From: an uncultured Ignavibacteria bacterium
GTDB taxonomy: Bacteria; Bacteroidota; Ignavibacteria; Ch128b
Assembly: GCA_937944105.1 (NCBI GenBank)
Contig: CALDZP010000076.1
Coordinates: forward strand, 1-64,000
DNA: 64,000 bases
Direction of reading: 5' to 3'
Shown: positions 34,246 to 46,873 of the stretch, piece by piece
Numbering within the stretch: position 1 is the stretch's first letter
Layout of the letters: each line of letters starts with the position of its first letter
Program-made: the position numbers and the translations under genes
The notes under the pieces: generated by a model
The model's input: only the letters and a program-made list of their open reading frames with translations
What the model was told of the DNA's origin: nothing
Database searches by the model: none

Positions 34246-34920
34246 TTATTCATCAAGCCGTTTTTTTCTTTTACGAAGAATCAATATCAACCATAAAGCA
34301 ATGAGAATTAATATTGATATTGTAATTACATAACTAAGCCCAGAACTTATTGGTACCTTAAAGGTTACAGATAGAGTCTTTTCGTCTTTTAATTGATCCA
34401 GTGAAAATTTCCATATCAATGTATTGTTTCTTTTTTCTGTTGCGTTATCCGTAATTATAGTGCCGGGGAAATGATAAATATATTTTACATAATATTCATT
34501 CTGTCCTGGGAAGTTTAGATTAAAATTTCTTATCCTCTGTTCAAAAATCTTTTGCCCCTGAGCTCCATCAAAAAATCTTATCTGGTAATCTTTAAAGAAT
34601 ATACATTCGTTCAACTTAGTAATATCATCAAATACAATTTTAACCTCTGTATGAAAAGTTGAATCAGACTTATTTTCCCAAACTTTAATTGATTTTATTT
34701 CAATATTATCAGCCCCGAAATTTTTCCTGATTACATCTTTATTAAATGAAAAGTTATTGGAAGAACTTGTATCATTATAAAGAATTTCTAGATTTGTCCA
34801 ATAATGAATAATAGCTGAACCACTCCCATCACCACCAATAAAAGTTTCAATTTCTAAATTTATACATCCGGAAAATAATATGGTTAATAGTGATATTAAT
34901 GTAATAGAAAACTTTTTCAT
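34246..34920 (-). CDS. LppM-like lipoprotein with C-terminal membrane helix
   Basis: I set the start at the ATG at 34920 (224 residues), because an AGAGAGAG purine run precedes it and it begins Met-Lys-Lys; a longer TTG-started frame is less likely. The N-terminus is a lipoprotein signal with lipobox Leu-Phe-Ser-Gly-Cys (Cys19). A beta-rich ectodomain (about 20-185) begins with Gly-Gly-Asp-Gly-Ser-Gly-Ser-Ala, reminiscent of LppM/DUF3153-type domains (from memory). A membrane helix at about 192-212 is followed by a basic Arg-Lys-Arg-Lys-Lys-Arg tail. Double anchoring by lipid and helix is unusual; it would keep the protein in the inner membrane. It stands alone. Function unknown. Confidence 0.75.
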   Translation of the reverse strand: MKKFSITLISLLTILFSGCINLEIETFIGGDGSGSAIIHYWTNLEILYNDTSSSNNFSFNKDVIRKNFGADNIEIKSIKVWENKSDSTFHTEVKIVFDDITKLNECIFFKDYQIRFFDGAQGQKIFEQRIRNFNLNFPGQNEYYVKYIYHFPGTIITDNATEKRNNTLIWKFSLDQLKDEKTLSVTFKVPISSGLSYVITISILILIALWLILILRKRKKRLDE

Positions 34921-35263
34921 AATTAATCTCTCTCTCTTCAAGCTCAGTTTAATAAGAATAAAAACTTTTTACAAGTCTGCTTAATGGAATAACTTACTTA
35001 ATTGGATTCTAATAAAAATATTGTCTTATCTATTATCATCATTTATTTCATTAAAGGCTCATTATATTCAAGATGAAAATTCTGAACAAATAACGATTAA
35101 AATGTTTATTTTGTAAAAATTAGTCTTTTACTTAGTCATTAATATTTTATGATTTTTTCTGAGATTTAATTTTTTTTGAAACTTAAAATTTTTTTGATCA
35201 TCTAAAAATTGATGGAGTGTAAAATTTTTCGGAATTTTGTAAAAATTAAATATAGAGGGAATT
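34921..35263. other. Divergent intergenic region
   Basis: These 343 AT-rich bases separate the LppM-like gene (minus) from the FmdB-like gene (plus). They must hold both promoters, but no confident -35/-10 pair was seen. No repeat or structured RNA was noticed. Confidence 0.5.
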
Positions 35264-35503
35264 ATGCCAACATATGATTACAAATGTATCAAGTGTGGAA
35301 ATATATTTGAGTTATTTCATGGAATAAATGAAAGACCACAAGTTGTGTGCCCGAAATGTGGTTCAATTGCACAAAAACAAATTAGTTTACATTCGGGATT
35401 AATATTCAAAGGTAGTGGATTCTATATAACAGACTACAAAAAAAGTAATTCTTCACCTGCAACCACAAAATCCTCAAGTGAAGGTTCTGAGTCTAAAAAA
35501 TAA
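35264..35503 (+). CDS. FmdB-type zinc-ribbon protein
   Basis: This 79-residue protein starts Met-Pro-Thr-Tyr-Asp-Tyr-Lys-Cys, the FmdB/putative regulatory protein family start. Four cysteines (8, 11, 29, 32) form a zinc ribbon. A Phe-Lys-Gly-Ser-Gly-Phe-Tyr-x-Thr-Asp-Tyr motif follows, as in the family, and a Ser-rich low-complexity tail. The biochemical role of these small proteins is not settled. It is a single gene with an AGAGGG ribosome-binding site, convergent with the protease-propeller gene. Confidence 0.9.
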   Translation: MPTYDYKCIKCGNIFELFHGINERPQVVCPKCGSIAQKQISLHSGLIFKGSGFYITDYKKSNSSPATTKSSSEGSESKK

Positions 35504-35521: not shown

Positions 35522-35547
35522 AACTGACCTCCAATTAGAGGTCAGTT
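35522..35547. terminator. Hairpin between convergent genes
   Basis: A 10-bp perfect stem (35522-35531 with 35538-35547) with a 6-base loop lies between the FmdB-like gene and the minus-strand gene ending at 35535. The TAA of the minus-strand gene sits in the loop and its last codons in one arm. T-tracts are weak on both sides, so it may be a bidirectional terminator or an RNA 3'-end stabiliser. Confidence 0.5.
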
Positions 35548-38500
35548 CCAAGGGATAAATAAAATTTCATATCAGAGAAATTAACAAGGTTATAATTCCA
35601 GGCGAAATCAAACTTGAGCAGGAAACCAAGGAAATAAATTCTTGTACCTAAACCAGTTCCAATCAATAAATCTTTTGTATAAACATTTCCGTATACATCT
35701 CTCACTGTACCTCTAAAATCTGAATTTCTTGTCCATGTTGAACCTATATCCAGAAATGCTACTCCTCGTATATTCTGAAACATTAAAGGTAATGGACTTG
35801 TTAGTAATAATTTAATTAATGGGAAATGGAGTTCCAGATTCATCAATGCGAATTTTGTACCTAACTTTTGAGAATAATTATAACCACGAAGCGGGAGTAC
35901 AGGGGTAAGAAACAAAAAATCCTCGGCTGATTCAATTGGAATTCGATTTTCCTCAAATTGATAATTAATCCAGTTATCTGTACCTCCCATCATAAATTTT
36001 TGTGGATTTCTTCCAAAACTTATTCCACCTGATAACCTGAAAGTTAAAGAATATTCTTTCCAAAATTTGAAATAAGTTCTGTAATCACCTGTAACTGTAC
36101 CAAAGCTAAATGAATTTTTCTTAAAAGCAGGAACACCAAAAATTGTGAAATTATATCTTGTTCCTCTTGAAGGAGCAGTAAATTCCCATAAGGAATTATC
36201 GTGTACGAAACTTGCTGATGGAATGAACAGAGATAGAGTTTGAGGTGGCTCTTCGTAAATATCGAGGTTATCTCTTCGAACATTTAACCAGCTAAATCCA
36301 CCCTCTAAACGATAAAATTTATCAATTGGATAAGAGGCTGAAAAGAATGTACCATAATTTCTATAACGATAAAGATAATAATATCTATTTCTTTCTTGAA
36401 TTAAGAATCGTGCTGTATGAAATGCTTGAAATGAAAAATCTGTCCTTTCGGGAAGATAGAAATATGCAATACCGTAATCACTGTTTTTTAAATCAATATT
36501 CAGACTTGTAATTCCAATGATTTGATGATCACCCATCATATCACTGAAAGCCAATATTGTTGTTCCAAGTAAACCATAAAATGTTGAAAAACCTGCATTG
36601 GCATAAACAATATCGGGAGTGAAATTAATTTTATATTTATTAATTATAAAATTGCCAAGTGAATCTTTCCTATCAAAAGAAAATAGATTTGTATCGGGTT
36701 GACTAACTTTCTTTGTGACAAATTTTTCATTAAAAATATAGTTAGTAAAATTTTGTCGTGCTATTTCAGAAAAGGTACTACTTGTATCAACAATGTTTCC
36801 TGTCTTTATTAAAATTGAATCACTATAAGTAATTTCAACTTTTTCTTTTATCTGGACCTTGAGAGGTTCATTTAATGTATCCATTGTTTTCTTTTCGGCA
36901 AGCTTTGCCTGAACGAATTTTGTCAATGGAAGCTTTACAAAATCTGTTATTTGTTCGACTGGATTTGTCATAACAAAAATGTTATAAGCCGCCTTATACA
37001 TTGAGCTAAAAGCTAATCGCTTTCCGTCATTAGAAAGACTTATTTGATAAATTCCATTCAAAGAATTAGTCAGAGGTTTTAGATCATCCTCTGATTTAAT
37101 AAGAACGGAATAGTTTTCATCAAAGATAACATTTGAAATATCCTTAAGGTAAATGTTATTTATACCATTTATATCAGAAATAAAGAAGAGGTATTTCCCA
37201 TCTCTTGAAGCAACTACAGAAGTTTCATTGCTATTTGGTAAATCAGTTATTCTCAGAATTTCTCTGGTCTCAACATTAATTCTGTAGATATCAACTTGCC
37301 GATAGTTATGATTTATAATATCGAAGAAATATTCTCTTGAAGCAAGCTCAGTGTAATCGCCTCTATCTGAAGAGAAATAAATTGATTTTCCATCGTGGGA
37401 AAAATGCGGATCTGAGTCACTAAAAATATCATTTGTTAGGTTGACAAGCTTTTTAGTTTCAAGATCATATATATAAATATCCGATTGATGTTTATACAAA
37501 CCGACAAACGCAAGTTTTTTCCCATCTGGAGACCAATCAACAGAAAAAATACCATCAAGTTGAAAATTTAATTTTTGATGTTTCCCGGTCTTAATGTCTA
37601 TTATGAAAATCGCATCGGATGCACCTGCTTTAGAAGACAAAGCGATTTTCTTCCCATCTGGTGACCAGCATAGACCTGGTGTAAGAATATGAAGTTCTTC
37701 GAAATTTGCAGTAGTGTTTCCTTTAACAAGTTTTTTAATGATTTTACCATCTGTTGCAGACATCAAAAATACATCAAAATAATCATCACGATTCGAAATG
37801 AAAGCGATCAAATCACCTTGTGGAGAAATAGCTGGTGAAGTATTGTAAAATCCACCATCTTTAGTATGATCGGTTAATTGCTTTGCGAATTCATTTGGTT
37901 CTTTTCTTATTTCTATATCTGGCCAGTAAAGAATTTTCTGTTCTTTTTTCCATTTTTCATTTAACTCTTGAAGATCAAAACCAAAAGTTGCCTTAATACC
38001 ACCTTCAAAACTTCCCTGTCCACGAATACGATTTAATAAATCTCCAATTTTCTCCTGCCCATATTTTTTTGAAATAAACCAGAATACTGACTGCCCCCCA
38101 CGATAAGCAAAATAACCATCAAGTCTATTTATGTCTGGTAAGTATTGATTAATAGTTGCATCTCTTAAAAACATATCGGAGTGGGGATCCCAACCAAGTG
38201 ACTCGAATTCTGAGAGTCCTTCCATAAACCACAATGGTAAATTCAAAGTAATATTATTTGAAATAATGGATTGAAGTGACCCACCATAAAACATATCATT
38301 CATCACAGCATGAACTAGTTCGTGATGGATAACATGACGAAATTGATCATAAGAGCCTTCAAACGGAACAACAACTCTGTTTTTGAAAAGTTCAGTTACA
38401 CCACCAATGCCTTCTTCAAGATATTCACTTATTACATTGGTCTGCTGGAAGTCATTGTGTGAATTATACACAATTATAGAGATTCGATTGTTAATATTGT

Positions 38501-38726
38501 ACTTAAAATTTTTCTGAATTGATGCTAAAGCAGATTCAGCAGCAACAATAGCAAAGGTTGCCAATCTTTCACCGCCGTCGGTAAAGTAAACATCAAAATG
38601 TTTCGATTGGATGTAATAGTAATTAAATTTTTTATACTGAACTTTATTTTTTCCGAATTGTGCTAAACCAGGAGAGTGATTAACGATTAACCCAATAATT
38701 AATAAAAACAAAACTTTTTTAAGCAT
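35535..38726 (-). CDS. Peptidase MA-like/TolB-propeller/outer-membrane barrel fusion protein
   Basis: This 1063-residue protein has a signal peptide (1-22). Residues about 30-285 form a gluzincin-type protease domain with His-Glu-Leu-Val-His at 135-139 and a likely third ligand Glu169 in Trp-Phe-Met-Glu-Gly, both intact, as in peptidase MA-like domains. Residues about 290-590 contain WD40-like/PD40 (TolB-type) blades: Ser-Pro-Gln-Gly-Asp-Leu-Ile-Ala-Phe-Ile-Ser, Trp-Ser-Pro-Asp-Gly-Lys-Lys (twice), Phe-Ser-His-Asp-Gly-Lys-Ser-Ile-Tyr-Phe. Residues about 690-1063 look like an outer-membrane beta-barrel. It is probably anchored in the outer membrane with protease and propeller exposed. An AAAGGTGG site supports the ATG. 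Confidence 0.85.
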   Translation of the reverse strand: MLKKVLFLLIIGLIVNHSPGLAQFGKNKVQYKKFNYYYIQSKHFDVYFTDGGERLATFAIVAAESALASIQKNFKYNINNRISIIVYNSHNDFQQTNVISEYLEEGIGGVTELFKNRVVVPFEGSYDQFRHVIHHELVHAVMNDMFYGGSLQSIISNNITLNLPLWFMEGLSEFESLGWDPHSDMFLRDATINQYLPDINRLDGYFAYRGGQSVFWFISKKYGQEKIGDLLNRIRGQGSFEGGIKATFGFDLQELNEKWKKEQKILYWPDIEIRKEPNEFAKQLTDHTKDGGFYNTSPAISPQGDLIAFISNRDDYFDVFLMSATDGKIIKKLVKGNTTANFEELHILTPGLCWSPDGKKIALSSKAGASDAIFIIDIKTGKHQKLNFQLDGIFSVDWSPDGKKLAFVGLYKHQSDIYIYDLETKKLVNLTNDIFSDSDPHFSHDGKSIYFSSDRGDYTELASREYFFDIINHNYRQVDIYRINVETREILRITDLPNSNETSVVASRDGKYLFFISDINGINNIYLKDISNVIFDENYSVLIKSEDDLKPLTNSLNGIYQISLSNDGKRLAFSSMYKAAYNIFVMTNPVEQITDFVKLPLTKFVQAKLAEKKTMDTLNEPLKVQIKEKVEITYSDSILIKTGNIVDTSSTFSEIARQNFTNYIFNEKFVTKKVSQPDTNLFSFDRKDSLGNFIINKYKINFTPDIVYANAGFSTFYGLLGTTILAFSDMMGDHQIIGITSLNIDLKNSDYGIAYFYLPERTDFSFQAFHTARFLIQERNRYYYLYRYRNYGTFFSASYPIDKFYRLEGGFSWLNVRRDNLDIYEEPPQTLSLFIPSASFVHDNSLWEFTAPSRGTRYNFTIFGVPAFKKNSFSFGTVTGDYRTYFKFWKEYSLTFRLSGGISFGRNPQKFMMGGTDNWINYQFEENRIPIESAEDFLFLTPVLPLRGYNYSQKLGTKFALMNLELHFPLIKLLLTSPLPLMFQNIRGVAFLDIGSTWTRNSDFRGTVRDVYGNVYTKDLLIGTGLGTRIYFLGFLLKFDFAWNYNLVNFSDMKFYLSLGTDL

Positions 38727-38750: not shown

Positions 38751-40862
38751 TTATTCAACAAGCTCAAAATCGATTTCGTTCCTTTCTTCATTTACTCCGA
38801 TAACCCTAACTCTTACAAGATCACCAAGTCTATAAACCTGTTTATTTAACTTACCAATTAAAGCATATTTATTTTCATCATAAAAATAAATATCCCCTGG
38901 CATATTTTTTAACCTTACAAGACCTTCAGCAAGATTTTCGGTTAACTCCACGAAAATACCAAATGCCTGTACACCAGAAATAATTCCATCAAATTCTTCA
39001 CCAATTCGATTTTTCATAAATTGTGTTTGTTTAAATTTAATGGCTTCCCTTTCAGCTTCCATTGCAATTCTTTCTGCAACAGAACTTGTTTTACAAATCT
39101 CTGGAATATTTTTTCTTAGTTCATTAGCACGTTTGGGAGAAATATCTTTTTCATATTCTTTAATTAAACGGTGCACCACCAGGTCTGGATATCTCCGAAT
39201 TGGTGAAGTAAAATGAGTATAATACTTAAAAGCAAGACCATAATGCCCGATATTTTTTTCAGAATATTCTGCTTTTGCCATTGATCGAATCATTAATTCA
39301 TTAATGAGAATTTCTTCAGGTTTATCTTTGATCTGCTCAAGTAATTTTTGAAGAGCTTTTGATTTAACCCCGCCTGCTATGTTTAATTTATAACCAAGTG
39401 AATTTACCAGATTTGCAAGTTGTCTGATTTTTTCTTCATCAGGGACATCGTGAATACGGTAAATAAAAGGAACCTTTTTAATATCTTCAAATTTTTTGCC
39501 TTCCTGTGCAATTATTTTGTTAGCAAGCAGCATAAAATCTTCGATTAATTTATGGCTCTGAAGGTGTTCCTTCTTTTTTACTTCGACAGGGATTCCGTCA
39601 GGATCGAGAATAAATCTTACTTCATCAGTTACAAAATCAATTCCACCATTTTGTATTCTTTTCTTAAATAAAATTTTTGCAAGTTCGTTTAATGTAATAA
39701 GTTCTTCAGCAAAATCTCCCTTACCAGATTTTAATATTTCTTCAACTTCTTCGTATGTAAATCTTCTTTTATTATTAATGACAGTTTTCTCAATTCGGTA
39801 GTTTAAAACCTCCGCTTTTTTATTCATTTCAATAAAAACAGAAAAGCACAAGCGGTCTTCTCCGGGAACCAGACTACACCATTTATTGGATAATGCTTCA
39901 GGTAACATAGGTACAACATAATTGACAAGATAAACACTTGTGCCCCTTTTTCGTGCTTCCAGATCTAAAAATGAATTTTCTTTTACAAAAAAACTTACAT
40001 CAGCTATATGAACTCCAACAAGAAAACGATTTTTATCAATTACTTCTATTGATAGGGCATCATCAAAATCTTTAGCATCAGCTGGATCGATTGTAAAAAC
40101 AATTTTATCTCTGATGTCTAATCGATTTGGAATTTCGCTCTTGATTGTTTCTTCTGAAAATTGATTTGCTTCTTCGAGTACATCTTCGGGGAATTTAGTT
40201 CTAATTTTGAAACTTCTAGCAATTGAAATCATTTCTGTGGTGTGATCAAGTGGCTTGCCGAGAATCTCAATTACTTCACCAACAGGATTAACCTTTGGTG
40301 TTGTCCATTCAATTAATTTTATTACTACTTTATCTCCATGCCTGGCGCCATGTAGCATTTCTTCTGGTATAAAAAAATCTCGATGAATTAATTTATCATC
40401 AGGTATTAAAAAATAAACTCCACGATAAGCTTCTATTTTACCAACAAATTCATCCGTTGATCTTTCAAGAACTTTAATGATCTCACCTTCCTGATTTTTC
40501 CCTCTATATCTTGCAAAAACTTCAACAAGAACTTTATCACCATTTAATGCTGTCCCTAAATTTCTTTCAGAGATAAAAATATCTTCACTTTCTTTTGATT
40601 CAGGTATCACAAAGCCATAACCATTTCTTGTCATTTGAAGTTTACCAATAATTTGATTTGCATCTTGGACAAGTAGATATCGTTTACCTTTTTTAATTAA
40701 CTTACCCTGTCGATAAAGTTCTGAAAGAATTTGTTTTAAGTTTGCATATTCTTCTTCAGATTTAATATTTAGTTTTTTTGATAATTCTTTTGATTTATAG
40801 CCACGATTGGGGCTATTTTGTAAAATTTTTTCTATCTGTTGTTTGATTTTAGTTTTCTTCAT
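38751..40862 (-). CDS. rnr: Ribonuclease R
   Basis: This 703-residue 3'-5' exoribonuclease degrades structured RNA. In order: an N-terminal winged helix (about 10-60), two cold-shock-like OB domains (about 70-200), the RNB catalytic domain (about 245-575) with Asp-Pro-Ala-Asp-Ala-Lys-Asp-Phe-Asp-Asp-Ala at 259-269 (metal-binding Asp262/265/267/268 region), and a C-terminal S1 domain (about 620-700). The Lys-rich tail of the E. coli enzyme is absent. It lies 24 bases upstream of the protease-propeller gene and after tamB. Confidence 0.95.
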   Translation of the reverse strand: MKKTKIKQQIEKILQNSPNRGYKSKELSKKLNIKSEEEYANLKQILSELYRQGKLIKKGKRYLLVQDANQIIGKLQMTRNGYGFVIPESKESEDIFISERNLGTALNGDKVLVEVFARYRGKNQEGEIIKVLERSTDEFVGKIEAYRGVYFLIPDDKLIHRDFFIPEEMLHGARHGDKVVIKLIEWTTPKVNPVGEVIEILGKPLDHTTEMISIARSFKIRTKFPEDVLEEANQFSEETIKSEIPNRLDIRDKIVFTIDPADAKDFDDALSIEVIDKNRFLVGVHIADVSFFVKENSFLDLEARKRGTSVYLVNYVVPMLPEALSNKWCSLVPGEDRLCFSVFIEMNKKAEVLNYRIEKTVINNKRRFTYEEVEEILKSGKGDFAEELITLNELAKILFKKRIQNGGIDFVTDEVRFILDPDGIPVEVKKKEHLQSHKLIEDFMLLANKIIAQEGKKFEDIKKVPFIYRIHDVPDEEKIRQLANLVNSLGYKLNIAGGVKSKALQKLLEQIKDKPEEILINELMIRSMAKAEYSEKNIGHYGLAFKYYTHFTSPIRRYPDLVVHRLIKEYEKDISPKRANELRKNIPEICKTSSVAERIAMEAEREAIKFKQTQFMKNRIGEEFDGIISGVQAFGIFVELTENLAEGLVRLKNMPGDIYFYDENKYALIGKLNKQVYRLGDLVRVRVIGVNEERNEIDFELVE

Positions 40863-40896: not shown

Positions 40897-43800
40897 TCAA
40901 AATTCAACTTTATATTTTAATCCTATTTCATTTGTCATTTCAATAGATTTTGAAATTTGTAATTGAGAGGATTTTCTGACGAGTCTTAAAAATAATTTAT
41001 CCGATACAGGATATTCAATCTGAATATTAGCGAGAGCAAAATTTTGAAATACATCGGTTCCACCACCAACTTTGAACCGAATATCTTTAAAACGACCTTC
41101 AAAACTAAATCTTGTTTCCTCTCCAACTCTTCTTAATTCTACATTTCTTAAGACATCACCCAGAATACTATTTGCAAAATTAGTTACTACAGAACCGAGT
41201 AATGAACTTGCAGCACTTTGAAATGTTCCACCCCAATTTGAAAGAGCTCCTGTTTTATCTTCAGCGGTTAAATCATCTTTAAATTTTCCAACTAGAATGA
41301 AAGCAACAACATCAGAAGCATCTTTTGAGCGGTCTAAATTACCATCAATATAAACTTCAATATTCTCTCGATTATTAACGAGATTTTTACCAAGCTCACT
41401 TACTTTACCGACGAGTTTAAGATTTACAAGAACATCTTTTACTGTCTGGTTTAATGTATCACCCTGAATGTAATAATTTGAGTATGATGCTAAAACATCA
41501 AGATAAGGATTTGATAGTTCACTTTCGAATCTTATTTTGCCTGAAGCAGAAAATTTTTGATAAAAAACCAGATAAGAATCTTTTGTTAATTCGATTTCTC
41601 CTTGAGTTGATGTTTGATTGTCGGTAAAATTATAAACCACTTCTCCCTTAAGATCAGCAAAAAGTCTTTGATTTAATTCTTGATTGAAAATCAATACTAA
41701 TGCTACATTATTTTTCAAAGAAATTTTTATCCTACCTTTTACCTTAGATAATACATTCGAACTTGATTGAGCTTTTATTTTTTTCTGACCCCTTAATTCT
41801 TTTTCTGCCTGAAGAAACGCAATATCAGCTGGATCAATTTTAGGGGAGTAATCAACATACGAATAAACAAACATTTCTTCTTCGGTTGAATATTCAGATT
41901 GAATTGGAGGTATAATTAAAGAAGATTCCTTTATGTTAATATTACCAGTGATATTGTAATTATTATAACTTCCTTCTACGACAATTGGCGAGGCTGTCTC
42001 AAAGAAAAGATCGCCATAAACTTTTGGTGATACTGAACGAGACTCTGCACCAAGAACAAGCAAACTCCCATAAGTGGTGAGTTTCAAGTTCTTTATTCCT
42101 TTATTATCTATTTCAAGTTCTGCATTTGTAAAAAGTTTTCCTCTTTTCTTTGTGTTCAAATTAGCTACTTCAAACTTTTCAAGAATAACTTTATTCTCCT
42201 TTAATTTAATACTTATATCGGATGAATACTTTAAGTTATTTTGTGCAAGTATGAAGTTCATATTTCTTGATGTAACTGTTCCGTAAAATTCTGGTTTATC
42301 AAAAGTACCAGTAATTCTGAGTTTCCCATTTAATGAACCTTCGATATTCTTGAATGATGTAATTAATCCTCTTAATGGTTGAAGATTAAAATCATTTAAG
42401 TTTATTAGAATCTCAAATTCTTTGTTTTTAATTAGTCGTTCATTTCCTTCCTTAAAGGATAAATCAATTGGTAAGTATCCACTCAACTCAAAATCATTCC
42501 CCTGATATATTGAATCAATGTATGAAGCAAATACATTAAGTAATTTATTTTCGTAACCGATTTTTCCGTTAAAATTTCCGAGTAAATCTTCTCCAATTTC
42601 AAGATTTGTTAAATCAAATGATGCATTAATTAAAGGTGATTGAGAAGAACCATTAATGGTAATATTAACTGTCAACTCACCACTAATTTCTTCTGTAATG
42701 TTCGGGAAGAAATTCAATACAAGGTCATAAAGTTCAAGTTTTTCTATATTGAGTTTTAAATTTTGTTTTCCTTCATAATCGAACTCGCCAGAAATTGTGT
42801 ACAATTCTCTTTTTCTTCTTAAGACAAATTGTTCGAAATTTACTTTATCCTTACCAAAAGAAAATATCAACTGCCCTTGATTTGTTAATTTGTATTTCTT
42901 GTATGTTATAGTTGCCTTATCAATAGTTGCTCTTAAATTTGGAGTAGAAATATCAAATGTTCCTTCAGAACGAATCGAGAGAAGTGAATCAACAACTGAA
43001 TAAATTTTATACTTAAATACATCCGAATCATAATCTACTTGAATACTTAAATTTTCAATATTTGAACCGGTAAAGATCTTTTCTGATTCTACCGAAGTTA
43101 TAAGCTTAATTTTCTCTACATCATCAGAACCATTTTGTGTTTCAAGTGTAAACATAAAGTCGGTATTTTTTGCTCTCAGTGATTGATTCAAATCAATAAT
43201 CCAGAAATCCTTAACATTAGCTCGGTTTTCAAAAATAAATTTCTGATTATTACTTGAGATTCTTCCACTTATCGCGCCATCAAGATTTATTTTAATTCCT
43301 TTAAGAAATACATTCATTAAATCAAAGTTTTTGAAATCAATTTTATAAGTTAGATTAAATTCACTCGGAGTTACTTTTTCATCAGATGATTTTGTCTCAA
43401 CTAACTTTTTTTCTTGAACAATAAAAATCAGAGAATCTTTTTCATGCTTAAATAATTTTATTTTTTTATCTATCTCATGCTGAACTAATTTGATTTTTTC
43501 TTGTAGAGTTTTTAATACATCCGTAAATCTGTAATTACCATTTACATCAATATCAACAAAATCTGATCTGACATTAATTGTTTTTATTTTAGTATCGGCG
43601 TGATTAACTTTTAATAAGAAATTGGATTCGTTAATATCTATATTGTTCAAATTCGATTGTAAGATAGATAGTTTTAGATTTGCATTTAGATTGTTTAAAT
43701 CCAGTCCCTCACCTTCTAAAATACCAGCAAAGTTAAGATTACCCTGAAAGTCTTTTAGAAATAAATTTTTTGCTGGATCAACATTCTGCATAACTAAATC

Positions 43801-45399
43801 AAATTTATAAGTCGGAATTTGAACATTTTGAAAATCAATCAAGCCTTTTAATAGTACATTTGCATTAGTTAAAACAGCAGAAAAGTCAAAATCTAATTTT
43901 TTTTGTTTCCCTACAAATTCCAAATGAAGAGAATCTATTTTATTTTCAGCAAAAGAAGAATTTAAAGCGACAAAGTTTAATCTGGTATTCAATGATTTAA
44001 TTTCAAATCCTTCACCATCAATTCTTAGTTTTGAATTGACTAAGCTACTTGTATTAATAATTGGAAGTAAATTTAAGTTTTTAGTTACCACCTCCAGTGA
44101 GTAATTCGGAATAGTCCTTGTAAAATTAAATTTTGATGTACCTGTAATTTCGCCATATGAACTTAAAACACTTAAATCAGTTTTAAAATTAAGTGGTGCC
44201 CCTTCATATAAAATATTAAGATTCAATTTTCCAAGTCCTTCAAACGATGGTATACTATAAAAAGGCAAAAGATTTGAAACATCCTTAAGGAAAACTACAG
44301 AGTTTAAAACCTTAGCTTTGATATAAAGGTTTTCTGGTTCATCAAGATTGAATAAAATTCCCTGAATGTTTAATCGCGTTGAGTCATATCGGGCTGTTAT
44401 ATAATCAACATTTAAATTTTTTAATGAACCATTTGCTTCTGCATTAAGAAATAGTTTGCCTCTTAACATATCAACTTCAGAAATGATAGACCTTAGATCA
44501 TCAAAGTTAAATGGTTCTGCTTCAACTCTAATATCAATATTTTTATCAGGAAATTTTTCAAAGAGCAAAGAATCACTTAGATCAAATTGATTAATCTGAA
44601 AATAAATTTTAAGGTCAGATTGTTTAGTTTTTACTGCTAATGGCTGAATCCATAAAGTATGATCTTTCACTCGTAAATCTAAATTCAATTTCTCAAGAGA
44701 AAAATTCTTTACATTGGTATTAAAACTAAATTCATGGATTTTGAGTTCATATTCATTTTTGGGAAATTCTAAAATTGTTGAAAGTCTAAGATTCAATCCT
44801 GAAATCACCAAATCATCATAATTAAACGAATCATAAACGGTGTATTTATAATAATCTGTTGAGTCAGCATTTGTCTTTAATGCAAATTGACAATCTGAAA
44901 AAACTAATGATTTAATTGAAACAATGTAATTAAATTTTTTTGATGGAGTTGTATCCTTCTTAACTGGATATTTCAGAATTTTTTCTGTTATCCATTGCCC
45001 ATCTTTAAATTGGATTAAATTTACATGACCATTTTCAAAAAAGATTTTATTAACAACAATTTTATTTTGAATCAAAGCAAGTGGATTAATTGAGATATGA
45101 ACAGTTTTAGCCGAAATAAATTCAACACCATCAATTGAGTAATTAAAGTTTTTTATCGTAAGACTTGAAAACAAAGTCCCATAAATTGATTCAATATTTA
45201 AATTTCCGTTCAGTTCTTTTTGAGCAAGCTCGATAACTTGATTTTTAAGAAGATTTCTAAAGTAACTGGTTTGAGTAAATCCTATTAATATCAAAACTAA
45301 AATGAACAGAAAAAGTAAAGCTTTACCAATGAAATGAAAAATCTTAAATGTTGTGGATTTATATCTCAATCTATATTTACTATCAAGCCTTATTCTCAA
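40897..45399 (-). CDS. tamB: TamB-like translocation/assembly module protein
   Basis: This 1500-residue AsmA/TamB-like protein bridges inner and outer membrane and takes part in outer-membrane protein or lipid homeostasis. One N-terminal membrane helix lies at about 24-43. A very long repetitive beta-rich region follows (many Phe/Leu/Ile-alternating strands separated by Asn/Asp turns). The C-terminal DUF490/TamB domain (about 1130-1500) has Ala-Phe-Ile-Leu-Val-Gly-Lys-Phe and ends in a Phe. The start is a TTG six bases after the rfaE2 stop; no ATG start is plausible before the helix. No TamA-like Omp85 gene is adjacent. Confidence 0.9.
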   Translation of the reverse strand: MRIRLDSKYRLRYKSTTFKIFHFIGKALLFLFILVLILIGFTQTSYFRNLLKNQVIELAQKELNGNLNIESIYGTLFSSLTIKNFNYSIDGVEFISAKTVHISINPLALIQNKIVVNKIFFENGHVNLIQFKDGQWITEKILKYPVKKDTTPSKKFNYIVSIKSLVFSDCQFALKTNADSTDYYKYTVYDSFNYDDLVISGLNLRLSTILEFPKNEYELKIHEFSFNTNVKNFSLEKLNLDLRVKDHTLWIQPLAVKTKQSDLKIYFQINQFDLSDSLLFEKFPDKNIDIRVEAEPFNFDDLRSIISEVDMLRGKLFLNAEANGSLKNLNVDYITARYDSTRLNIQGILFNLDEPENLYIKAKVLNSVVFLKDVSNLLPFYSIPSFEGLGKLNLNILYEGAPLNFKTDLSVLSSYGEITGTSKFNFTRTIPNYSLEVVTKNLNLLPIINTSSLVNSKLRIDGEGFEIKSLNTRLNFVALNSSFAENKIDSLHLEFVGKQKKLDFDFSAVLTNANVLLKGLIDFQNVQIPTYKFDLVMQNVDPAKNLFLKDFQGNLNFAGILEGEGLDLNNLNANLKLSILQSNLNNIDINESNFLLKVNHADTKIKTINVRSDFVDIDVNGNYRFTDVLKTLQEKIKLVQHEIDKKIKLFKHEKDSLIFIVQEKKLVETKSSDEKVTPSEFNLTYKIDFKNFDLMNVFLKGIKINLDGAISGRISSNNQKFIFENRANVKDFWIIDLNQSLRAKNTDFMFTLETQNGSDDVEKIKLITSVESEKIFTGSNIENLSIQVDYDSDVFKYKIYSVVDSLLSIRSEGTFDISTPNLRATIDKATITYKKYKLTNQGQLIFSFGKDKVNFEQFVLRRKRELYTISGEFDYEGKQNLKLNIEKLELYDLVLNFFPNITEEISGELTVNITINGSSQSPLINASFDLTNLEIGEDLLGNFNGKIGYENKLLNVFASYIDSIYQGNDFELSGYLPIDLSFKEGNERLIKNKEFEILINLNDFNLQPLRGLITSFKNIEGSLNGKLRITGTFDKPEFYGTVTSRNMNFILAQNNLKYSSDISIKLKENKVILEKFEVANLNTKKRGKLFTNAELEIDNKGIKNLKLTTYGSLLVLGAESRSVSPKVYGDLFFETASPIVVEGSYNNYNITGNINIKESSLIIPPIQSEYSTEEEMFVYSYVDYSPKIDPADIAFLQAEKELRGQKKIKAQSSSNVLSKVKGRIKISLKNNVALVLIFNQELNQRLFADLKGEVVYNFTDNQTSTQGEIELTKDSYLVFYQKFSASGKIRFESELSNPYLDVLASYSNYYIQGDTLNQTVKDVLVNLKLVGKVSELGKNLVNNRENIEVYIDGNLDRSKDASDVVAFILVGKFKDDLTAEDKTGALSNWGGTFQSAASSLLGSVVTNFANSILGDVLRNVELRRVGEETRFSFEGRFKDIRFKVGGGTDVFQNFALANIQIEYPVSDKLFLRLVRKSSQLQISKSIEMTNEIGLKYKVEF

Positions 45400-45404
45400 T
45401 TTGA

Positions 45405-45878
45405 CTAACCATTACTTTTCATTTTATTAATAATATTAGTAGTGGAATAATTTTCCACATAAGGCAGAGAAAAAACTTTTCCACCATTTGCTTCGACAAT
45501 ATCTCGACCAACAATTTCATCGATTTTCCAGTCGCCACCTTTTACAAGCACATCAGGAATAATAGCAGAAATAATTTCGAACGGAGTATCTTCCTCAAAA
45601 CTTACCACAAAATCCACAGCTTTGAGATTTGCAACCACAAATGCTCTATCTTCAAGTTTATTTATTGGACGACCTTCACCTTTTAATCGTCGAACAGAAT
45701 CGTCAGAATTTAGAGCAACAATAAGATAATCACCTAAAGCTTTTGCACGATTAAGATAATCAACATGACCACGATGAATTATGTCAAAACAACCATTAGT
45801 AAAAACGAGTTTCTTCCCTTCTTCTTTAATTTTTTGTCTAATAGATAAAAATTCTTCTAATGATAATAATGTCTTCAT
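45405..45878 (-). CDS. rfaE2: D-glycero-beta-D-manno-heptose 1-phosphate adenylyltransferase
   Basis: This 157-residue nucleotidyltransferase makes ADP-heptose for LPS. The family motif Thr-Asn-Gly-Cys-Phe-Asp-Ile-Ile-His-Arg-Gly-His at 27-38 holds the nucleotide-binding HxGH. Asn-Ser-Asp-Asp-Ser-Val-Arg-Arg-Leu-Lys-Gly and Val-Lys-Gly-Gly-Asp-Trp follow. In E. coli this domain is fused to the kinase as HldE; here it is separate, with its ATG overlapping the rfaE1 stop by 4 bases. It supplies the donor for the heptosyltransferase at 5.2 kb. Confidence 0.95.
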   Translation of the reverse strand: MKTLLSLEEFLSIRQKIKEEGKKLVFTNGCFDIIHRGHVDYLNRAKALGDYLIVALNSDDSVRRLKGEGRPINKLEDRAFVVANLKAVDFVVSFEEDTPFEIISAIIPDVLVKGGDWKIDEIVGRDIVEANGGKVFSLPYVENYSTTNIINKMKSNG

Positions 45879-46873
45879 TTTTTCCCATCATCAATTAAAG
45901 TGTTATAAAGCAAATCTCTATCAATAGGAACAACTCCCACTTCTTCACAAACAAGTCCTGCAGCAAGATTTGCAATTGTGGCAGCTTCTTCAATCTCAGC
46001 ACCAGCCGCCAATGCCATTGTTAAAGTTGCAATAACAGTATCTCCAGCACCAGATACATCCGCAACTTTTCTTGCACGAGTAGGTATGTTGTGAATAGCA
46101 CTATCTTTACCAAATAAAGTCATCCCTTTTTCACCTCTTGTAAGTATTAAAAAATCAGGATTAAGTTTATCTTTTAATTTATAACAGGCTTCGATGACTT
46201 TTTCTTCTGAGTCAAGTCTTATTCCAAGTGCATCTTCAGTTTCTTTTTTATTTGGTTTAAAGACAGTCACATTTTTGTACTCAAAGAAATTATCAAATTT
46301 TGGATCAACTGTTATTATGATATTGTTATCTCTTGCACATTGAATAACCTTAGAAATAAGATTTTTTGTTAATACTCCTTTATTATAGTCTTCAAGAATT
46401 ATTGCATTTAAATTCTGAACATTGTCATTAAGGAATTGAAGGATTTTATTTTCCATTTCTTCAGAAATATTTCTTTTATCTTCTTTATCAATTCTTACAA
46501 CATGTTGATTGTGTGCAATGATTCTTGTCTTAACAGTTGTAGGTCTTTCATCATCATAAAAAACCCCATCCTTCTCAAAATCATTTTCTTTCATAAGCGA
46601 ATCTATAATAGTTCCTTCTCTATCGTATCCAATAACACCAATTAAAACTGGAATTCCACCCAGTGATTTTATATTCATTCCAACATTCGCAGCACCACCA
46701 AATCTATATGATTCTTCCTGAACTTCTACAACAGGAACTGGAGCTTCGGGTGAAATTCTCGCTACTTTTCCCCATATATAAACATCGAGCATTAAATCAC
46801 CAAGTACAGCTATCCGAATTTCTTGAAATTTATTAAAAATCTGATCTAACCTATCTTTTCTAAATTTAACCAA
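45875..46873 (-). CDS. rfaE1: D-glycero-beta-D-manno-heptose-7-phosphate kinase
   Basis: This 332-residue PfkB-family kinase phosphorylates heptose-7-phosphate on the way to ADP-heptose. N-terminal Val-Leu-Gly-Asp-Leu-Met-Leu-Asp-Val-Tyr-Ile-Trp-Gly, then Arg-Ile-Ser-Pro-Glu-Ala-Pro-Val-Pro-Val and Gly-Gly-Ala-Ala-Asn-Val-Gly, and the catalytic Ser-Gly-Ala-Gly-Asp-Thr near residue 278. The start is TTG with a strong GGAGGAT site seven bases before it; no ATG fits. It is the first gene of the rfaE1-rfaE2-tamB(-rnr) run. Confidence 0.95.
   Translation of the reverse strand: MVKFRKDRLDQIFNKFQEIRIAVLGDLMLDVYIWGKVARISPEAPVPVVEVQEESYRFGGAANVGMNIKSLGGIPVLIGVIGYDREGTIIDSLMKENDFEKDGVFYDDERPTTVKTRIIAHNQHVVRIDKEDKRNISEEMENKILQFLNDNVQNLNAIILEDYNKGVLTKNLISKVIQCARDNNIIITVDPKFDNFFEYKNVTVFKPNKKETEDALGIRLDSEEKVIEACYKLKDKLNPDFLILTRGEKGMTLFGKDSAIHNIPTRARKVADVSGAGDTVIATLTMALAAGAEIEEAATIANLAAGLVCEEVGVVPIDRDLLYNTLIDDGKK

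Follow-up and report, generated by a model that had tools for sequence, protein, structure and literature searches.

What does a single polypeptide do that combines a predicted zinc protease, a beta-propeller and an outer-membrane barrel? The question is raised by one gene in a 64,000-nucleotide stretch of DNA, hereafter the window, from an uncultured Ignavibacteria bacterium (assembly GCA_937944105.1, contig CALDZP010000076.1, positions 1 to 64,000). The gene, referred to here as the target, occupies positions 35535-38726 of the reverse strand as an intact reading frame of 1063 open codons. Its 1063-residue product comprises a signal-peptide-like start, a gluzincin peptidase, a TolB-like propeller, a linker and an Omp85-type barrel. 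An initial annotation, made from the letters alone, had proposed a gluzincin site, TolB-like blades and a barrel-like C-terminal region in one chain; all three parts were borne out, and the three-domain architecture is well supported. That annotation did not recognize the Omp85/BamA type of the barrel, the absence of POTRA domains or the fact that propeller-Omp85 fusions had already been described (PMC4104836). Ignavibacteria and their relatives probably carry a predicted protease built into an outer-membrane barrel of the assembly type.

Domain architecture of the target protein

Structure prediction of the full chain with AlphaFold2 (77 aligned sequences) returned peptidase, propeller and barrel, with a mean predicted local distance difference test score (pLDDT) of 83.4 and a predicted template modelling score (pTM) of 0.81. 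Values of pLDDT below 50 are confined to residues 1-3, 12-22 and 619-683. Conservation within the class was read from an alignment, A2, of 77 sequences, namely the window and 76 of 80 loci; three loci cut by contig ends (L041, L106 and L109) and one with a stop and unknown residues (L097) were left out. Conservation at greater distance was read from 31 orthologues: the window, 12 loci chosen from the 80 and 18 of 20 loci chosen from other classes, where L150 and L152 were missed by the caller of open reading frames (ORFs). Locus L029 was left out of alignment A1, and A1 and A2 overlap (L004 and L031 are on contigs of equal length), so their counts are not summed. All features of the target lie on the reverse strand. 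Residues 1-22 (38661-38726) resemble a signal peptide on inspection of the sequence, with no lipobox cysteine seen by eye, and residues 2-15 form a helix in the model.

The peptidase MA (gluzincin) domain spans residues 24-290 (37857-38657) and was recovered both by Pfam and by a model of this part alone (pLDDT 84.7). PF13485 (Peptidase_MA_2) covers residues 62-261 with 61.2 bits (cut-off 32.4). The HELVH motif at residues 135-139 (38310-38324) contains what we take to be two zinc-ligand histidines and the catalytic glutamate, and Glu169 (38220-38222), within WFMEGLSE, is presumably the third ligand. HExxH, a downstream glutamate and the gluzincin fold are thus all present. H135, E136, H139, E169, G170 and E173 are invariant in the 77 class sequences and in 31/31 orthologues, down to about 38% identity, and no loss of zinc ligands was seen in these homologues; HExxH occurs in all 77 loci checked, L097 included. 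Glu169 is also kept in 18/18 aligned paralogues of the C7 type described below (17 from relatives and one from the same genome), a set preselected by HEL[VIT]H, which excluded L178 (HELCH), so that only E169 and the barrel columns are independent there. Among 18 paralogues identified by BLAST with no motif filter, every one has HExxH. As the ligands are kept in the orthologues and HExxH in these paralogues, catalysis is predicted and the target would be an active protease. Alternatively, the fold might serve as a non-catalytic binding module in a structural or scaffold outer-membrane protein, since loss of catalysis is possible in similar folds; invariance of the zinc ligands, the catalytic glutamate and the following glycine and glutamate in every orthologue and class sequence makes this highly improbable. 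A degenerate protease was rejected on the invariant ligands, and membership of the M48/BepA group on a PF01435 score of 11.9 bits, under the cut-off of 20.3.

Structural matches to the peptidase model include M9 collagenases (Z 17.1, root-mean-square deviation (rmsd) 4.9 over 233 residues; Z 16.4, rmsd 3.7 over 222), M30 lugdulysin (Z 15.0, rmsd 6.0 over 235) and M1 aminopeptidases (Z about 12.7-14). Among the 50 matches listed, these peptidases have the gluzincin fold in common with the target (Z 12.7-17.1) but only 9-17% identity to it, and we know of no such propeller-barrel fusion in families M9, M30 or M1.

The propeller occupies residues 294-588 (36963-37847). PD40 repeats score 86.3 bits against a Pfam cut-off of 20.9, and TolB structures match residues about 278-579 with Z 24.0-26.4 over 240-251 residues. 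In a phmmer search of the PDB, TolB is the best sequence match and propeller proteins head the list; neither the peptidase domain nor the barrel gave a match there that merited follow-up. A linker of residues 600-698 (36633-36929) follows, mostly variable and modelled with low confidence at 619-683. Inside this low-confidence part lies a conserved motif, [DN]xx[N][YF]xF, at residues 659-665 (36732-36752). Phe665 is found in 97% of the 77 class sequences and in 30/31 orthologues, other classes included, where position 663 is Tyr or Phe in 30/31 and Asn662 is kept in 25/31. The motif falls in a gap in 18/18 aligned C7-type paralogues and is specific to the target group. Conservation of a short motif within a flexible linker suggests a putative partner-binding site.

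The barrel, residues 703-1063 (35538-36620), has 16 strands when counted by hand from the DSSP assignment (703-1059), 11 before loop 6 and 5 after it. BamA chains match residues about 704-1063 with Z 22-25.7 and rmsd 3.5-4.1 over 287-315 aligned residues, and Foldseek matches the barrel to BamA and TamA. Two motifs accompany the fold: LRGY at residues 946-949 (35880-35891), between strands 11 and 12, with R947 in 31/31 and G948 in 29/31 orthologues, and FLDIG at residues 991-995 (35742-35756), with D993 in 31/31. We take these to be the Omp85 loop-6 motif [VLI]RG[FY], with its Arg, and the FxDxG motif, with its Asp, and the loop to sit as in Omp85 proteins. A strict loop-6 expression, applied to the last 250 residues, finds only 9/18 distant sequences, as adjoining positions vary. 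Profile evidence points the same way. The barrel alone matches the NCBIfam models TamL (E 1.2e-6, its best NCBIfam match) and BamA (TIGR03303, E 1.8e-5, collinear over 8-342 of 361 residues), both far under their cut-offs. Against PF01103 neither the whole protein nor the barrel alone gives a match, and the C-terminal part of the target is without a Pfam match; 4/29 orthologues do match PF01103, the best at 2.7e-10. Profile comparison of the target with the BamA of the same genome is weak (E 0.0011, probability 21) but collinear across the barrel, and with the TamL-like protein of that genome it is also weak. No POTRA domain was matched by Pfam at E<=1, and residues 24-588 are occupied by peptidase and propeller. 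The barrel is of the Omp85 superfamily type, and POTRA domains are missing. A random or ordinary barrel is ruled out by the Omp85 fold and motifs; membership of the TamA/TamL group is ruled out as POTRA domains were not found.

Distribution and paralogues

How widely is this design kept? Across 61 genomes (the source genome and 60 relatives, in 37 genera) every one has some match, and 59/61, counted by hand, have a target-type match (at least 40% identity). Of these, 52 are single alignments, one of which (G037) begins at a contig end and contains a single in-frame stop; 6 are in two pieces on one frame and 1 runs across two contigs. For the remaining two genomes, G045 and G054, the top match listed is only paralogue-like, partial and 35-36% identical. 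Judging from these comparisons, the design is strongly conserved in Ignavibacteria and their relatives, and its conservation across the 61 genomes is far beyond chance. Most of the named class loci, at least 80, bear the label Ignavibacteria or Bacteroidetes, and Melioribacter and Kryptonia are among the matches listed. A search of the phylum found matches in 380/395 genomes and none in 15/395. This tally takes in weak matches (families such as f31 and f35, where probably just the propeller matches) and should not be read as a number of orthologues. The top-ranking places among those listed, 150 by hand count, all span model positions <=16 to >=981 of 1044. A plasmid collection yielded 39 matching records with no single place covering more than 80% of the query; presence beyond the phylum was otherwise scarcely probed. 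One plasmid gene, of Salinibacter ruber (L229, 4944-6845), encodes a 633-residue protein in which a propeller accompanies a peptidase-like part (PF13485 14.6 bits, under the cut-off); it is too short to include a barrel. It is 33.9% identical to the target over residues 11-532 and lies near genes for a TonB-dependent receptor and a zinc transporter.

The source genome also encodes paralogues. One of them, C7 (946 residues), has a peptidase match of 25.1 bits, under the Pfam cut-off of 32.4, a propeller and a PF01103 barrel, which scores 36.5 bits against a cut-off of 24 when searched alone and was missed in the whole-protein scan. A quick tree of 50 sequences places the target and C7 types in separate groups, with 99 and 100 in the Shimodaira-Hasegawa-like approximate likelihood ratio test (SH-aLRT). 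At the C7 locus (L130, G000:C7, 2452-7679) the paralogue is followed by BamB-like, PEGA and TPR/YfiO-like genes whose ends overlap or lie close. Taking the longest ORFs, C7 overlaps the start of the BamB-like gene (TIGR03300, E 3.5e-20, 72 bits, under the cut-off of 285.2); after it come the PEGA gene and one for a TPR protein, which has a YfiO-type match. Three places in the genome match PQQ_2, and the only BamB-sized one is the gene after C7. Twenty relatives were fetched, and no paralogue was recognized in L169 and L171; in 14 of the other 18 a BamB-like gene directly follows the paralogue, and in a fifteenth (L168) an unlabelled BamB-sized gene with a lipobox-like pattern does so. A further relative in the same genome, C69 (1031 residues), has peptidase and propeller, and its barrel was not confirmed; its locus (L131, G000:C69, 1171-8711) encodes two proteins next to it. 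The C-terminus of one is presumably a sorting domain of the type IX secretion system (T9SS), and we take the other to be PorV-like.

Gene neighbourhood and proposed role

What might such a chain do in the cell? We propose that the target is a periplasmic protease, anchored in the membrane, that serves outer-membrane assembly or the quality control of that process, and assign this reading a probability of about 45%. It would be an Omp85 outer-membrane protein in which POTRA has been replaced by a module of a periplasmic gluzincin-type zinc peptidase and a TolB-like propeller, acting from the periplasmic side of the outer membrane on the assembly or quality control of envelope proteins. The barrel would anchor the chain and might itself contact client outer-membrane proteins or the machines that assemble them; a client or partner would be bound by the propeller; and the peptidase would cut stalled or misassembled clients, much in the manner of BepA, a separate protease that works on the BAM complex. 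We infer export, periplasmic position, proteolytic activity, clients and partners alike. The proposal draws on the linkage of the target to a TamB-like gene and of its paralogue to a BamB-like gene, on the roles of Omp85 proteins and on the action of BepA on BAM. Omp85 members studied before PlpD are all described as acting in assembly or translocation at the outer membrane (PMC11116518).

On which side of the membrane does the peptidase lie? The barrel might export its own peptidase-propeller part to the cell surface, as was once proposed for PlpD, for nutrition or the processing of secreted proteins. The long flexible linker between propeller and barrel would allow for this, collagenases are among the closest folds of the peptidase, and the barrel-less Salinibacter protein, with its receptor and transporter neighbours, matches the peptidase-propeller part. 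Yet a 16-strand barrel would be too narrow for a folded propeller. In addition, the enzyme domain of PlpD stays periplasmic, and Omp85 POTRA domains are reported never to have been observed outside the periplasm (PMC11116518). Export to the surface is, in our judgement, unlikely; Omp85 topology and the PlpD precedent favour, by analogy, a periplasmic position for the predicted protease.

The gene neighbourhood bears on possible partners. Upstream of the target, on the same strand, lie genes for RNase R (38751-40862; PF00773, E 3.3e-111; 24 bp upstream) and for a TamB-like protein of 1500 residues (40897-45399; NCBIfam TamB, E 6.4e-24; 34 bp upstream of RNase R), the latter with 83.9 bits against an equivalog cut-off of 825, no Pfam match and a single copy found in the genome. 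Beyond them are a cytidylyltransferase resembling the HldE C-domain (45405-45878, PF01467) and a PfkB-family kinase resembling the HldE N-domain (45875-46873, PF00294), both also on the reverse strand, which we take to be RfaE2 and RfaE1. The five genes run on one strand with gaps of at most 34 bp, and the target is last. In 55/80 class loci RNase R and then TamB lie upstream of the target; in 8/80 RNase R stands at a contig end, in 1/80 it is followed by something else, 13/80 have another neighbour, 2/80 no upstream ORF and 1/80 no full target ORF. Among the 13, tblastn does detect RNase R at L064 and L097, and at L058 the block RNase R-TamB-RfaE2-RfaE1 is inverted, lying on the opposite strand but still adjoining the target. 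The 20 loci chosen from other classes comprise 5 with the triad of target, RNase R and TamB (families f26, f52 and f37), 1 with RNase R only, 11 with other neighbours, 1 with none and 2 that were missed. These neighbourhoods suggest that the target may work with other envelope-assembly proteins. Downstream, many class loci have a conserved lipoprotein-like gene (34246-34941 in the window; lipobox by eye) with no convincing Pfam match, and a small zinc-ribbon gene (35264-35503, forward strand; PF09723), presumably FmdB-like, converges with the target. An Rfam scan of the window gave 0 matches at gathering thresholds, and ARAGORN reported 0 genes.

A different interpretation of the linkage is that in this lineage the target serves TamB as a TamA-like partner in the outer membrane, with the peptidase-propeller docking TamB in place of POTRA and proteolysis secondary. 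No other Omp85 was found near the TamB-like gene, and TamL is the best NCBIfam match of the target's barrel. A TamB-like gene was found in 26/26 genomes that had not shown the triad; in 20 of these the TamB flanks, about 1.7-7 kb per side, held no Omp85 recognized by phmmer with the Omp85-type and paralogue proteins of the source genome as queries, a search that diverged barrels can escape, and 19/22 listed long unlabelled ORFs near TamB had no Omp85 or POTRA match in Pfam, shorter ORFs not being covered. In one of the 20 (L210) the contig stops just past RNase R, and the target may follow there. Operons of TamL and TamB are described, as is a noticeable group of bacteria with TamB and without TamA or TamL (PMC4494059). 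The flank scan may, however, have passed over diverged barrels, shorter ORFs and a target beyond the L210 contig end, RNase R separates the two genes, and linkage is lost in several lineages. The genome also encodes elsewhere a 696-residue POTRA-Omp85 that is TamL-like (NF052279, E 2.9e-56, 191 bits against a cut-off of 400), a more natural partner for TamB, which weakens the case for the target in that role. We regard a dedicated partnership with TamB as doubtful.

The same facts weigh against a role of the target in assembly or quality control, where that proposal leans on TamB: RNase R, whose gene makes the link, is a cytoplasmic enzyme; 13/80 class and 11/20 other-class loci were assigned another neighbour; and the TamL-like protein would be the more natural partner of TamB. 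RNase R adjoins TamB in many of the 20 fetched genomes without the triad, and since many genomes keep the pair RfaE2-TamB or TamB-RNase R with no target beside it, the gene order may be merely inherited.

Going further, we speculate, with low expectation, that there may be a phylum-wide Omp85 branch in which POTRA has been swapped for a zinc protease and a propeller, giving single-chain assembly-and-quality-control factors whose paralogues are partnered with TamB (the target, its partner docking via [DN]xxN[YF]xF in the linker) and with a BamB-like lipoprotein. A conserved single chain holding an Omp85 barrel and a protease would offer a direct route to how assembly and degradation are coupled, and to the identity of the outer-membrane partner of TamB in bacteria whose TamB has no linked TamA or TamL.

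Comparison with known systems

We found no description of a gluzincin-propeller-Omp85 protein in the titles or abstract openings of open-licence PMC papers. Several known systems nevertheless resemble the target in part. TamA and TamL resemble it in that an Omp85 protein is encoded near TamB; the target differs from them in having no POTRA domains and in the RNase R gene that stands between it and TamB. BepA, a stand-alone M48 protein that carries TPRs, resembles the target in the role we propose, as a zinc protease working on outer-membrane protein assembly, whereas the target scores below the M48 cut-off and unites protease, propeller and barrel in one chain. BepA acts on BAM, and proteases policing this step, BepA among them, are described as separate proteins (PMC13067283).

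PlpD, the patatin-Omp85 protein, shares with the target an enzyme domain N-terminal to an Omp85 barrel, but its enzyme is a patatin-like lipase and it has a POTRA domain. A separate PlpD-like patatin-Omp85 gene is present in the source genome (L134, G000:C3, 4435-7128; patatin-like RssA E 3e-30, BamA E 5e-38).

A further parallel is the WD40-Omp85 subfamily, defined and likened to a BamA-BamB fusion by Heinz and Lithgow (2014, PMC4104836). As described in the main text of that paper, its members combine an Omp85 barrel with a TolB-like WD40 propeller at the N-terminus and lack POTRA, as does the target. The 'Metallo' subfamily of the same paper is separate and carries PF00149. Minor Omp85 subfamilies are read there as spread by horizontal transfer, whereas the target is class-wide. 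It differs further in its added peptidase domain; none is described for the subfamily in the main text of PMC4104836, where 'peptidase' occurs 0 times. As far as that description extends, the target fits the WD40-Omp85 subfamily with a peptidase domain added.

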